A stretch of 45,252 nt of DNA from a virus. Positions within the stretch are counted from its first letter, which is position 1. Each line of letters begins with the position of its first letter. The stretch is from positions 1 to 45,252 of IMG/VR virus record IMGVR_UViG_3300022540_000340; one strand, given 5' to 3'. The translations under genes were made by a program, and so were the position numbers. Positions 2,566 to 16,853 of this stretch are shown piece after piece. Under the pieces are notes generated by a model that saw nothing but the letters and a program-made list of their open reading frames with translations, had not been told where the DNA came from and searched no databases.

Positions 2566-2592
2566 ATAATTATTCGTATATTGTGGAACGGC
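2566..2592 (+). promoter_or_regulatory. 27-bp box, copy 1
   Basis: Twenty-seven bases identical to 3720-3746, containing TTCGTATATTGTGGAACGGC. The TATATTGT core resembles the Bacteroidota -7 element TAnnTTTG imperfectly. In this copy no TTG lies 19 bases upstream, so it is either a weak promoter or the conserved 5' end of the leader RNA. Confidence 0.55.
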
Positions 2593-2667
2593 AGTAAGTA
2601 AGGTGAGATATACTTTCTGTTGAGTTACAAAAAACAAGACCAAAAAAATATAATTTCTAAAGATATT

Positions 2668-2748
2668 AAAGCTTTGGAGGTACTAGGATTACACGCAATT
2701 TCTTGTTTTAGTCGTGTTTCTCACCCTATACCTCCAAAGCTTTTTTTT
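2668..2748 (+). terminator. terminator hairpin of leader RNA 1
   Basis: Perfect 15-bp stem (2668-2682 with 2729-2743), extended by TAGG (2684-2687) with CCTA (2725-2728), and a run of eight T at 2741-2748. The 46-base loop is long for a plain terminator and contains the A1' and A2' segments. Confidence 0.7.
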
Positions 2749-2764
2749 GTTTAAAATTGAAATT

Positions 2765-3352
2765 ATGGATATTGAAAATTGTGCTTATTCATTTGAAGGA
2801 GAATATTTCGACAAGAATAAAGAGTTTTGGGAATCTGACGACCTAGACCCTATTGATTCTTTTTTTATATCATCACTAAAGGTGTTTCACTATAGCGATA
2901 CTTCGGAGTCGTGGCTTCCTTTTATTGCCTCCTATGAAGATGTTATATTCCTTCCTTCGTTTAATGGCGTTAAAGTAGGTGATGTATTTTTGTCGAGTCG
3001 GGTTGAATGGATGGAAAGAGCAGACGATAAGCCTAATAATATTATATCTGTTTTTGATATTAAGAAAGAACTAAACTACACATATCTAGTTTTTGGAAAC
3101 GACGAAATAAGCCTATCTGTTGATATTAATCACATAGAGCGATACATAAAAGATATAGGAGCAAAATACATTTGCAACGCATTTGACGACAAACACCTAA
3201 TGTATGACAAGTGTTCATTTGAAAGAAATATGGTTGAAAAATCTCATTTAAAACGGTGTTTGCGGTACTACAAAGAAGGGTTTGAGGACTTATCACAGGA
3301 GAAACTAGAAAGAGAGATAGAAGAAGGATTACACGACATGCCATCTAACTAA
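2765..3352 (+). CDS. hypothetical protein controlled by leader RNA 1
   Basis: A 195-residue acidic protein starting MDIENCAYSF. The frame is open to 2714, but that start lies inside the terminator hairpin, so 2765 is chosen. The N-terminal part has F-W/Y-rich beta-type segments (residues 15-110) and the C-terminus is a charged helix. No family recognised. Its start lies 16 bases after the leader's T run, so expression should depend on reading through that terminator. Confidence 0.7.
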   Translation: MDIENCAYSFEGEYFDKNKEFWESDDLDPIDSFFISSLKVFHYSDTSESWLPFIASYEDVIFLPSFNGVKVGDVFLSSRVEWMERADDKPNNIISVFDIKKELNYTYLVFGNDEISLSVDINHIERYIKDIGAKYICNAFDDKHLMYDKCSFERNMVEKSHLKRCLRYYKEGFEDLSQEKLEREIEEGLHDMPSN

Positions 3353-3376
3353 CCCACCGAAAAAAACAACGAAATT

Positions 3377-3706
3377 ATGAAAGAAGAAATTATAATTGAT
3401 TTCATTTATTTAAGATACAAAGCGATGTACGGATTCCCTCAAGGTTATTGTGGGCAAATCGCAGAGGAGATACAAAAAACCATTGGAGGGGAATTAGTAG
3501 CAGGGTATTTGGCTTTCCCTTCTCACAATAGGGAGCATTGGTGGTTGGATTTAGACAATAAGATAATAGACCCGATGTCTGTTGAATTACAAAAAACCGA
3601 CCCACATAGGCATATAGAGATACATAGAGATTTGTCAAGAAGGTACTGGATTAAAGGATTTAATAAACAAAAAAAGATAAAAGCAAACGAAGGAATGCCC
3701 TTCTAA
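3377..3706 (+). CDS. small protein with Cys-His-Asp triad-like residues
   Basis: A 109-residue protein. Residues GYCGQIAEEI (Cys25), REHWWLDL (His54) and IIDPMS (Asp65) follow the Cys ... His-W ... Asp-P layout of compact transglutaminase-like or papain-fold enzymes. The Cys begins a helix and the His and Asp sit on adjacent strands. This may mean a peptidase, amidase or acyltransferase activity, but the family assignment is inference. It follows the leader-1 gene by 24 bases and so may share its control. Confidence 0.6.
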   Translation: MKEEIIIDFIYLRYKAMYGFPQGYCGQIAEEIQKTIGGELVAGYLAFPSHNREHWWLDLDNKIIDPMSVELQKTDPHRHIEIHRDLSRRYWIKGFNKQKKIKANEGMPF

Positions 3707-3708
3707 TT

Positions 3709-3746
3709 TTGCGGTCTGGATAATTATTCGTATATTGTGGAACGGC
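3709..3746 (+). promoter_or_regulatory. candidate promoter with 27-bp box, copy 2
   Basis: TTG at 3709-3711, then exactly 19 bases, then TATATTGT at 3731-3738. This matches the Bacteroidota -33 element and spacing with an imperfect -7. The 27-bp block 3720-3746 is identical to 2566-2592. Confidence 0.55.
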
Positions 3747-3921
3747 GAAAGCCAAATGCTATTTAGAATGTGAGAGACTCTATGTAGTAAGTTTAAAAGA
3801 AACAAACTAAAAATATAACTTCTTTTCAATATCAAATGGTATTGAAGAGAGTAGCACGTGCTTTATGTTTCTTTTGCACACTCTCAAACTTTTACGCTAC
3901 TTTCTTCAATACCATTTTTTT
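3720..3921 (+). ncRNA. structured leader RNA 2 (predicted pseudoknot and terminator)
   Basis: Same architecture as leader 1: A1 TGAGAG (3771-3776), A2 AAAAGAAACA (3795-3804), conserved block AAAAATATAACTTCT (3809-3823), B (3835-3855), inner arm GTGC (3858-3861), A2' TGTTTCTTTT (3866-3875), inner arm GCAC (3876-3879), A1' CTCTCA (3881-3886) and B' (3896-3916), then seven T (3915-3921). B:B' is a 21-bp stem with one G-T pair. The helix sequences differ from leader 1 but pairing is kept in all of them. The T run again ends 16 bases before the ATG (3938). Confidence 0.7.
3835..3921 (+). terminator. terminator hairpin of leader RNA 2
   Basis: A 21-bp stem between 3835-3855 and 3896-3916 followed by a T run to 3921. 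The 40-base loop holds a small GTGC/GCAC hairpin and the segments complementary to the upstream leader. Confidence 0.75.
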
Positions 3922-3937
3922 GTTTAATTTTAAACTT

Positions 3938-4768
3938 ATGAGAGGATTTGTAAAGTTACACAGGCAACTTATAGAATGGGAATGGTATCATGATATGAAT
4001 GTAAAGGCTACTTTCTTGCATTTACTGCTTACTGTTAATTTTAAGGATAAGCGATGGAAAGGTATATTAATCAAGCGAGGGCAAATATTAACTAGCTTGC
4101 AGCACTTAGCCGATGCTATTGGTATATCAGTGCAAAAACTACGCACAGCACTACTAAAGCTAGAGGACACTAATGAAATAACAAGGGAAGCAACAAGCCT
4201 TTTTACTATGATAACTGTCTGTAACTTCGACAGTTACCAAGATAAAGACCTTATGCAGCAACAAGCGGATAACAAACCATCAACAAGCGAGCAACAAGCG
4301 GATAACAAACCATCAACAAGCGAGCAACAACTACTAGAGAATGTTAAGAATGAAGAGAAGGATAATAATGAAGAGAAAAAATACCCTTACATAGAGATTT
4401 TCCAAAAAATAAAAAACGGCGAATTAATCAGAGTAACACAATTAGATAAAAACTTTCACTTTGGCTTATTCCCTGATGATTGGTCTGAAAACTTCCAAAA
4501 TGAAATACTTAGCTTTTGGCGTTACATGGAAAGTAAGAAATCAGATCGTTGGGGCGTAATTGGAACAATATCTAGTCAATTAAGCGCAATTAAAAGTTAT
4601 TTACAAGATTACACCGAAAATGAGATAATAAGCGCATTTGGCGAAACCATAAGCAAAGGAAATGTTTCTTGGAATCCTCTTTGGACTAAAAACCGAGATA
4701 AAATCTCAAAAGCAAAAAACGGACACGTTCCCACTTTTTCATATAACAGCAAAATAAGCAACGCATGA
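3938..4768 (+). CDS. replication initiator-like protein (DnaD / phage O type)
   Basis: A 276-residue protein. The N-terminal 95 residues, starting MRGFVKLHRQLIEWEWYHD, have the winged-helix layout of phage replication initiators (ILTSLQHLADAIGISVQKLRTALLKLE is the helix-turn-helix part). A linker contains QQADNKPSTSE twice in tandem. The C-terminal part (about 155-276) is helical and could contact the helicase. The stop overlaps the DnaB start by 4 bases (4765-4768), which supports a paired role in helicase loading. The frame is open to 3836, but 3938 lies just past the leader terminator and is preferred. Expression is probably set by leader RNA 2. Confidence 0.75.
   Translation: MRGFVKLHRQLIEWEWYHDMNVKATFLHLLLTVNFKDKRWKGILIKRGQILTSLQHLADAIGISVQKLRTALLKLEDTNEITREATSLFTMITVCNFDSYQDKDLMQQQADNKPSTSEQQADNKPSTSEQQLLENVKNEEKDNNEEKKYPYIEIFQKIKNGELIRVTQLDKNFHFGLFPDDWSENFQNEILSFWRYMESKKSDRWGVIGTISSQLSAIKSYLQDYTENEIISAFGETISKGNVSWNPLWTKNRDKISKAKNGHVPTFSYNSKISNA
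4257..4322 (+). repeat. 33-bp tandem duplication in initiator gene
   Basis: Two consecutive in-frame copies of a 33-bp unit encode an 11-residue repeat (QQADNKPSTSE). The copies look identical, so the duplication is recent or kept homogeneous. It lengthens the linker between the DNA-binding and C-terminal parts. Confidence 0.75.
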
Positions 4769-11284: not shown

Positions 11285-11358
11285 GAACATGAGGCTAAAT
11301 TGGCGAAGCGCACCGAAGTAAGTAGGTGAGATTGTAGGTTCGAGTCCTACCTAGTTCA
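11285..11358 (+). tRNA. tRNA-like sequence with irregular anticodon loop
   Basis: A perfect T arm (GTAGG-TTCGAGT-CCTAC, 11334-11350), a D arm GCT...AGC with TTGGCGA in the loop, an acceptor with five of seven pairs and a normal total length of 74. The anticodon stem CACC/GGTG closes an 8-base loop (AAGTAAGT) plus a mismatch, so no standard anticodon can be assigned. AAG follows the only possible U33. It is either a degenerate tRNA or one with an expanded loop. Confidence 0.5.
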
Positions 11359-12389: not shown

Positions 12390-12460
12390 GGATGAGTGGC
12401 CGAGCGGTTAGGTAGTGGATTGCAACCCCACGCACGAAGGTTCGATTCCTTTCTCATTCT
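12390..12460 (+). tRNA. tRNA-Cys (GCA)
   Basis: All arms can be drawn: a seven-pair acceptor (12390-12396 with 12453-12459, one G-T), a D arm with GAGCGGTTA, an anticodon arm GTGGA-TTGCAAC-CCCAC with anticodon GCA at 12422-12424 (one A-C mismatch), and a T arm GAAGG-TTCGATT-CCTTT. CCA is not encoded. It is flanked by a leader hairpin and a terminator, so it is a separate transcript. Confidence 0.85.
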
Positions 12461-15561: not shown

Positions 15562-16853
15562 AGAAAAAGTATAAACCACTATACACTACTGATAAACGTT
15601 ACCTAATTCTAACAGGTGGGCGAGGTAGTGGGAAAACTCACGCCGTACAAGACCTACTCATTAGGCTAATGGAAGATGTTGGTCAAGGGATTCTTTACAC
15701 TCGATATACAATGAAAAGCGTAAAGGACACAATTATTCCTCTATTTCTTAAATACATCGACACAATAGGAGATTCCAGAAACTACCACACAACAGCTACA
15801 AAGGTTATCAACAAAAGAACAGGCTCGTTTATAATGTTCTCAGGGATTAAGGTTTCATCCAAAGACCAAACAGGTAACTTAAAGTCATTGCCAAACATTA
15901 ATACATGGGTAGTAGAAGAGGCCGAGGATTACAATAGAGCGCAAAGCTTCACAGATATAGACGATTCGATAAGAGATAAGGATAAAACAAATAAAATCAT
16001 CCTTATTTTGAACCCTACCACTAGACACCATTTCATATACAAACGATTCTTTGAGGGACACCATGAAAAAGTACTAATAGAAAACGGTGCCGAATGGGTC
16101 AATGAAGATGGAGAAGTCCAACACTCTACCTACCAAAAATCAACACACCCAGAAGTTGAGCATATCCACACAACATACTATGACAATTTAGAACATCTCA
16201 ACGAGGATAAAGTTAAGCAATGGGAGTCAATAAAAGAAACCGACCCCGAAACATGGACTAACAAATACGGTGGTTCATGGATAGACATGCCAAAAGGTGC
16301 GGTATTTAAAAAAGTTAACTGGATTGAAGAATTTCCTTCACATATTACCCGTATTAGTTGGGGGATGGATTTTGGATTTGAAAATGACCCTACCACATTA
16401 ATTAAGTGCGGAACGGCAGATGGACAACTTTTTGCTGAAATGTTCGTATATGAGAAAGGGCTTATAGCTAGCAATGTAGACAACAAGACTACTAAGAATA
16501 TTAATGATAAATTGATAGGCATAGGATTCAACCGAAAGCATAAAATAATAGCTGATTCATCGCACCCTATAACGATTAAGACATTAAGGCTATTAAAATG
16601 GGATATTAAAAAGGCAAAAAAAGGTCAAGGAAGCGTTGTAAGTGGTATAGATGCGATAAAAACATACGGTAAATTGAATATAGTTTACTGTAAAGAGTGG
16701 AATGAGGAACAATATTCGTATATTTGGGATAAGAATAGAAATTCAGAAAACCTAAGCAATAACCCACAAAAAGGGAATGACCACCTTTGGGATGCTTTAC
16801 GATACGGCATTCAAGGTCTGAGAAGGTCAACAGCTAGGACAACAGTAAGATAA
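15537..16853 (+). CDS. terL: terminase large subunit
   Basis: A 438-residue packaging motor and nuclease. ATPase: Walker A GGRGSGKT (about 27-34), Walker B with catalytic Glu in TWVVEEAED (about 123-131). Nuclease domain: WGMDFGFENDPT (about 275-286), IIADSSHP (about 336-343) and NDHLWDALRYG (about 414-424), which supply the acidic metal ligands of the RNase H-like fold. It drives DNA into the prohead and cuts it. The set resembles the Terminase_3 (PBSX-type) family, which often packages by headful; that mode would fit a circular map. Confidence 0.97.
   Translation: MARAAAKIKKKYKPLYTTDKRYLILTGGRGSGKTHAVQDLLIRLMEDVGQGILYTRYTMKSVKDTIIPLFLKYIDTIGDSRNYHTTATKVINKRTGSFIMFSGIKVSSKDQTGNLKSLPNINTWVVEEAEDYNRAQSFTDIDDSIRDKDKTNKIILILNPTTRHHFIYKRFFEGHHEKVLIENGAEWVNEDGEVQHSTYQKSTHPEVEHIHTTYYDNLEHLNEDKVKQWESIKETDPETWTNKYGGSWIDMPKGAVFKKVNWIEEFPSHITRISWGMDFGFENDPTTLIKCGTADGQLFAEMFVYEKGLIASNVDNKTTKNINDKLIGIGFNRKHKIIADSSHPITIKTLRLLKWDIKKAKKGQGSVVSGIDAIKTYGKLNIVYCKEWNEEQYSYIWDKNRNSENLSNNPQKGNDHLWDALRYGIQGLRRSTARTTVR

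Follow-up and report, generated by a model that had tools for sequence, protein, structure and literature searches.

What are the two long intergenic regions that lie near the start of a tailed phage genome, one of them directly upstream of a replication initiator gene? The window, that is, the whole 45-kb stretch of DNA analysed here (45,252 nucleotides of an IMG/VR virus record), encodes a portal protein whose best likeness is to the portals of Flavobacterium, Croceibacter and Bacteroides phages (24-33% identity). Single-protein searches of IMG/VR with P0001, P0002, P0004 and the portal gave no match. The record begins within a GCTTCTGCG tandem repeat (positions 1-60), which may explain why the assembly ends there. 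A first-pass annotation had proposed that the two regions, at 2566-2764 and 3720-3937, specify leader RNAs of one complex architecture that belongs to no described RNA family and that acts as a cis-acting control element of conditional termination or forms a stable phage RNA.

The architecture holds at base level (Table 1). Each leader RNA would be approximately 160-185 nt long. The A1, A2 and inner helices are as first described in both leaders, as is the 15-bp B:B' stem of copy 1; the B:B' stem of copy 2, given earlier as 21 bp, has 22 pairs including one G.U. An intrinsic terminator-like hairpin is placed between a promoter-like box and the start codon in both copies. The T runs end at 2748 and 3921 and the ATG codons begin at 2765 and 3938, so the reported spacing of exactly 16 bases is found twice. 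The box, the A/T block and the T run are the only parts conserved between copy 1 and copy 2. A conserved ligand-binding core, as would be expected of a riboswitch, was not found in the window copies, whose helix sequences vary freely. In copy 2 an ATG within B is in frame with DnaD, and no stop codon interrupts the terminator and T run that follow (3836-3937, 34 codons). Leader translation was rejected as a general feature, as the frame is open in window copy 2 and in the relative L103 and closed in the relatives L120 and L102.

Table 1. Features of the window leaders and adjacent genes (window coordinates), followed by leaders of the one-contact form described in the text
Feature	Position	Strand	Remarks
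Copy 1 27-bp box, promoter-like, TATATTG core	2566-2592	+	identical to 3720-3746; putative transcription start near box 3' end
Copy 1 5' hairpin P1, A1 in loop	2590-2621 (2590-2600:2611-2621)	+	MFE and centroid fold
Copy 1 A1 (GGTGAGA)	2602-2608	+	pairs with 2719-2725, 7 bp
Copy 1 A2 (AAAACAAGA)	2631-2639	+	pairs with 2701-2709, 9 bp
Copy 1 conserved A/T block	2644-2662	+	antiterminator-like 5' arm 2653-2662 pairs with B at 2672-2681
Copy 1 B:B'	2668-2682:2729-2743	+	15 bp
Copy 1 inner helix	2691-2695:2713-2717	+	5 bp
Copy 1 terminator-like hairpin	2668-2748	+	B:B', inner hairpin, A2', A1', T8
P0002, gene 3' of copy 1	2765-3352	+	195 aa, without known family
Copy 2 27-bp box	3720-3746	+	identical to 2566-2592 over 27 bp
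Copy 2 5' hairpin P1, A1 in loop	3757-3789 (3757-3767:3779-3789)	+	MFE fold
Copy 2 A1 (TGAGAG)	3771-3776	+	pairs with 3881-3886, 6 bp
Copy 2 A2 (AAAAGAAACA)	3795-3804	+	pairs with 3866-3875, 10 bp
Copy 2 conserved A/T block	3809-3833	+	antiterminator-like 5' arm 3820-3833, 14-bp helix with B 3838-3851
Copy 2 B:B'	3834-3855:3896-3917	+	22 pairs including one G.U
Copy 2 inner helix	3858-3861:3876-3879	+	4 bp
Copy 2 terminator-like hairpin	3834-3921	+	B:B', inner hairpin, A2', A1', T7
P0001, DnaD-like helicase loader / replication initiator, 3' of copy 2	3938-4768	+	PHROG 2514, E=5e-27
DnaB-like helicase, next after P0001	4765-6213		DnaB_C, E=1e-75
Two tRNA genes	11285-11358 and 12390-12460		Rfam tRNA model
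One-contact leader, L191			before KilA-N
One-contact leaders, L101 (twice) and L246			before NUMOD4 genes; HNH nuclease domain in the two tested
One-contact leaders, L120/L119, L102 and L237			before DnaD
One-contact leader, L281			
One-contact leader, phage phi18:3			upstream of DnaD gene
One-contact leader, phage FCL-2	37480-37596 (FCL-2)		before gene with phage replisome-organiser C-terminal domain

The 27-bp box is promoter-like. It resembles the -7 consensus of the Bacteroidota, TAnnTTTG (PMC7366714), from which its core is one T short. Allowing up to 3 mismatches, 22 of its bases occur at 2 places in the window, where shuffled sequences lead one to expect 0. As a handle for finding relatives the box failed, since the exact 27 bp had no match in IMG/VR. 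With 3 mismatches, 396 Flavobacteriales genomes yielded 5 matches against 4 in reversed controls; the 4 matches inspected had the look of coding sequence and were not taken as members. In the window, the stretch from terminator to ATG contains no TAnnTTTG box. Because of this, and because the T run is so close to the ATG, transcription from the box would reach the gene only past the terminator, which favours a conditional terminator.

How much of this could arise by chance? The folding z-scores against shuffled sequence are -3.4 (copy 1) and -5.2 (copy 2), values driven by the long terminator stems. The contacts of the 5' region with the terminator loop are independent of those stems; A1 and A2 taken together have p=0.0067 against dinucleotide shuffles in each copy. 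Taken alone the two copies are thus only moderately improbable, and they may be duplicates of one another, so that conservation cannot be proved from them. Relatives were sought for this reason.

Candidate relatives came from alignments of DnaD N-termini (35 loci from genomes and 160 from viruses, with some contigs represented more than once), to which whole phage records were added. They were scanned with a descriptor for a terminator-like hairpin followed by a T run, with loop complementarity to the 100-130 nt upstream. The examples that follow were chosen by their pairing and are illustrative rather than an unbiased sample. The two-contact order of the window copies was found in two other phage contigs, L278 and L103, with unrelated genes and entirely different letters. 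L278 has a promoter (TATCTTTG), then a 5' hairpin (ATTAGA/TCTAAT) with A1 (TCCAAC) in its loop pairing with A1' (GTTGGA). A2 (TGAGATA), an A-rich linker, B (GCCCTTGTAGAA), an inner GGA/TCC helix around A2' (TATCTCA), A1', B' and a T run complete the plan, and the ATG of a GIY-YIG/NUMOD3 gene lies 13 nt downstream. L103 has a 5' hairpin (TGTGTTG/CAACACA) with GTAGAT in its loop, an 11-bp A2, a 13-bp B, a T run and then an ATG. Together with the window copies these make up a predicted two-contact subclass.

A one-contact form, in which the 5' hairpin loop is complementary to the loop of the inner hairpin of the terminator, is commoner and was found in at least 10 independent leaders, two of them from the phage isolates phi18:3 and FCL-2 (Table 1). 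The window copies also have A1 in a 5' hairpin loop and its complement inside the terminator loop, with A2:A2' as a second contact. A GAGUA...CGAAA internal loop, which we take to resemble the bulged-G (loop E) motif, is kept in the one-contact leaders of L191, L101, L120, L102 and FCL-2. Neither window copy has it in the terminator loop, and a terminator-loop model (R1) finds neither of them. Most of the relatives' leaders are immediately preceded by a TAnnTTTG (or TAnnTTTA) box, and in 17 of the 19 listed leaders the start codon is 4-31 nt past the terminator hairpin or T run. We infer Bacteroidota hosts for the metagenomic contigs. Homologues do keep the A pairings, the point on which the first-pass annotation had made its proposal depend. 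Its statement that the helices are kept by compensatory change is weak when judged from two copies; the evidence for it is supplied by relatives that form the same pairing with different letters.

Flavobacterium phage 1/32, Croceibacter phage P2559S and Bacteroides phage B124-14 showed nothing convincing, nor did the region upstream of the DnaD-like gene in Riemerella phage CRP2. The strict one-contact form gave no sign of itself in host chromosomes among the 395 Bacteroidia genomes searched with R1, where matches were weak and none of those inspected was member-like.

Several other elements were seen along the way. Leaders of this kind occur several times in the L105/L108 phage lineage; one precedes an HTH repressor-like gene, and in another the A:A' helix reaches 17 bp (L141 14863-14929; L136 10633-10681 in minus-strand coordinates and 16218-16273 on the plus strand). 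L213 and L217 (approximately 1240-1500) have another type of leader directly before DnaD, GAGAGGTTGAGCCGATCAACTCGTAAAAGG...CCTTCCCTCTCTTTTTT, with a relative in which the stem letters are changed; it may be a second RNA class. In L053 (1381-1500, plus strand) a hairpin upstream of DnaD has a loop (GTTGCACG) complementary to the start-codon sequence (CGTGCAAC), which looks like translational control by a pseudoknot. It was not counted as a class member, the complementarity with the DnaD start region being in reverse order. Upstream of leader 1 in the window, 1517-2113 encodes a protein (from MKETWKPVNHKG to VSNLGNVWKIKD) that by eye has the look of a NUMOD4/HNH homing endonuclease. This is the gene type that bears such leaders in L101 and L246; the window's candidate instead precedes leader 1.

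For a test free of the selection of examples, leaders were recognised in non-coding DNA from three features alone (a promoter-like box, a hairpin and a T run), and dereplication left 45. True pairs had a mean A:A' stacking energy of -17.7, against -13.7 for pairs swapped between leaders. None of 20,000 permutations was as good as the true pairing (p<=5e-5), even though the 45 include unrelated hairpins that dilute the signal; a set of 47 leaders again gave p<=5e-5. In window copy 1 the true pairing was better than every swap.

The crossing of A:A' and B:B' had been taken to mean a pseudoknot or a two-state switch. A pseudoknot is not required, and two alternative nested states fit. When the RNA is folded up to the last loop base, without B', A1:A1' forms in copy 1 with a mean probability of 0.98 and A2:A2' in copy 2 with 0.97, the remaining contact being weak (0.15 for A2:A2' in copy 1, 0.11 for A1:A1' in copy 2). 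In the same fold B is paired with the A/T block in both copies (AUUUCUAAAG:CUUUGGAGGU in copy 1, UUCUUUUCAAUAUC:GGUAUUGAAGAGAG in copy 2). Once B' is added, both copies switch to the 5' hairpin, B:B' and the inner hairpin. In most other class members A:A' likewise dominates the fold before B'. The helices are best read as sorting into two knot-free states predicted by folding, A1:A1', A2:A2' and A/T block:B before B', and P1, B:B' and the inner helix after it. The A/T block may sequester B by supplying the 5' strand of an antiterminator-like hairpin. Chance levels for this helix are p=0.076 in copy 1 and p=0.002 in copy 2, and it is strong in the window copies only, falling short of significance class-wide (p=0.05 and 0.13).

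Which of the two states the phage uses, and what would tip it, we infer as follows. On balance each element is probably a promoter with a cis-acting 5' leader that carries a conditional intrinsic terminator, or attenuator. This part of the original proposal is the best-supported reading, with the A pairings kept, Rfam negative, the terminator next to the start codon and no box between them. As long as RNA polymerase has not passed the hairpin loop, the leader would be closed by A1:A1' and A2:A2', with B held by the A/T block in an antiterminator-like hairpin. Synthesis of B' would then allow the terminator to form from B:B', the inner hairpin and the 5' hairpin. Synthesis order and topology suggest that A:A' delays or blocks B:B', which would let some polymerases enter the downstream gene. 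The ratio would be set by something in the infected cell, such as the rate of transcription, a protein of phage or host origin, or a second RNA, and would time DnaD and the gene after copy 1. In full-length folds, with energies that ignore tertiary contacts, the terminator is at -40.4 and the forced A state at -28.6 kcal/mol in copy 1, and at -48.4 and -39.6 kcal/mol in copy 2. The terminator is so strongly favoured that read-through would need a kinetic or assisted route.

Because B:B' leaves the A nucleotides unused, A:A' could also have the opposite effect: as a kissing contact compatible with B:B' in the final structure, it could strengthen termination rather than oppose it, or give a stable terminated RNA. 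The latter is an unlikely rival, in which the product is a small noncoding RNA made compact and nuclease-resistant by the 5' hairpin loop kissing the terminator loop, the nearby ATG being incidental. The element has its own promoter and terminator and a strong fold, in the one-contact form both A and A' are hairpin loops as in kissing complexes, and the GAGUA...CGAAA loop is kept. An incidental ATG does not sit well with the tight spacing in 17 of 19 leaders or with the recurrent gene types, DnaD and homing endonucleases. It is improbable that the kissing contact makes a constitutive strong stop against upstream transcription, with the gene living on leaky read-through: the B stems and T runs are strong and B:B' dominates the full-length fold, yet promoter and terminator follow one another within a single short unit, so that such an insulator would silence its own promoter, and a plain hairpin would suffice without A:A'. 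We hold as quite improbable that A1 and A2 of terminated leaders pair in trans with nascent A1' and A2', leader concentration setting termination as in plasmid copy-number attenuators. The A sequences do differ between copies within one genome (the window, L101), as in orthogonal antisense pairs, and the 5' part of copy 2 is still able to pair with the loop of copy 1, at -23.8 kcal/mol where the true pairs have -25.4 and -26.9, but intramolecular pairing is kinetically favoured. Chance, or a DNA-level feature such as a duplicated promoter box with unrelated hairpins or inverted repeats of an origin, is very improbable: the single-copy p is modest (0.007), but the same order and pairing recur with different letters in independent phages, at a permutation p<=5e-5.

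Returning to conditional termination, a wider form of it can be put forward, though we think it doubtful: a class of RNA switches that is peculiar to phages and acts during transcription. The loop of a 5' hairpin would seize that of the terminator still being made, with no need of a conserved aptamer, and would gate polymerase entry into replication and mobile-endonuclease genes. Its input might be how fast the polymerase moves, a protein of the phage or, as a dosage signal, terminated leader RNA working in trans. Early-gene timing in Bacteroidota phages appears to be little described, and no protein or RNA mechanism for it was found in the open-licence literature. The leader class points to a widespread, undescribed route of gene timing in these viruses. 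It would provide a concrete RNA-level mechanism and an annotation marker for DnaD-type initiators, KilA-N and homing endonucleases. Because phi18:3 and FCL-2 can be grown, it is directly testable.

At the gathering threshold the Rfam 15 covariance models find two tRNAs only in the window and nothing in L101, L119, L003, L103, L105 and L066. The layout was not found described in open-licence texts either, in agreement with the first-pass view that it matches no described family. Several known systems share parts of it. The rep leaders of plasmids pT181 and pIP501 are transcription attenuators tripped by antisense RNA. The phage leaders resemble them in having alternative helices and in placing a terminator directly ahead of a replication initiator gene. 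In the phage leaders, by contrast, the alternative helix forms within one RNA molecule and extends into the loop of the terminator. The put RNA of phage HK022 modifies RNA polymerase to pass downstream terminators. It and other phage antitermination leaders are likewise structured RNAs at the start of early phage transcripts; in the leaders described here the terminator belongs to the element itself. The c4 antisense RNA of P1/P7 (Rfam RF01695) is a phage RNA with segments complementary within the same transcript, but it acts on the leader of a separate target gene, and the phage leaders have no sequence or model match to it. The expression platform of the fluoride riboswitch (crcB) is similar in that pairing at the 5' end and an intrinsic terminator compete during transcription (PMC11077080), whereas the phage leaders are without a conserved aptamer core or ligand site and without an Rfam match. 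The candidate RNAs Bacteroidales-1, Bacteroides-1 and Flavo-1 (PMC2864571) are from the same host phylum, and no Rfam match at the gathering threshold links them to the leaders. Terminator/antiterminator leaders as such are known; what would be new, judging from sequence, is base pairing of a transcript's 5' end with the loop of the terminator on the same RNA, in a form common to phage initiators, KilA-N and homing endonucleases.
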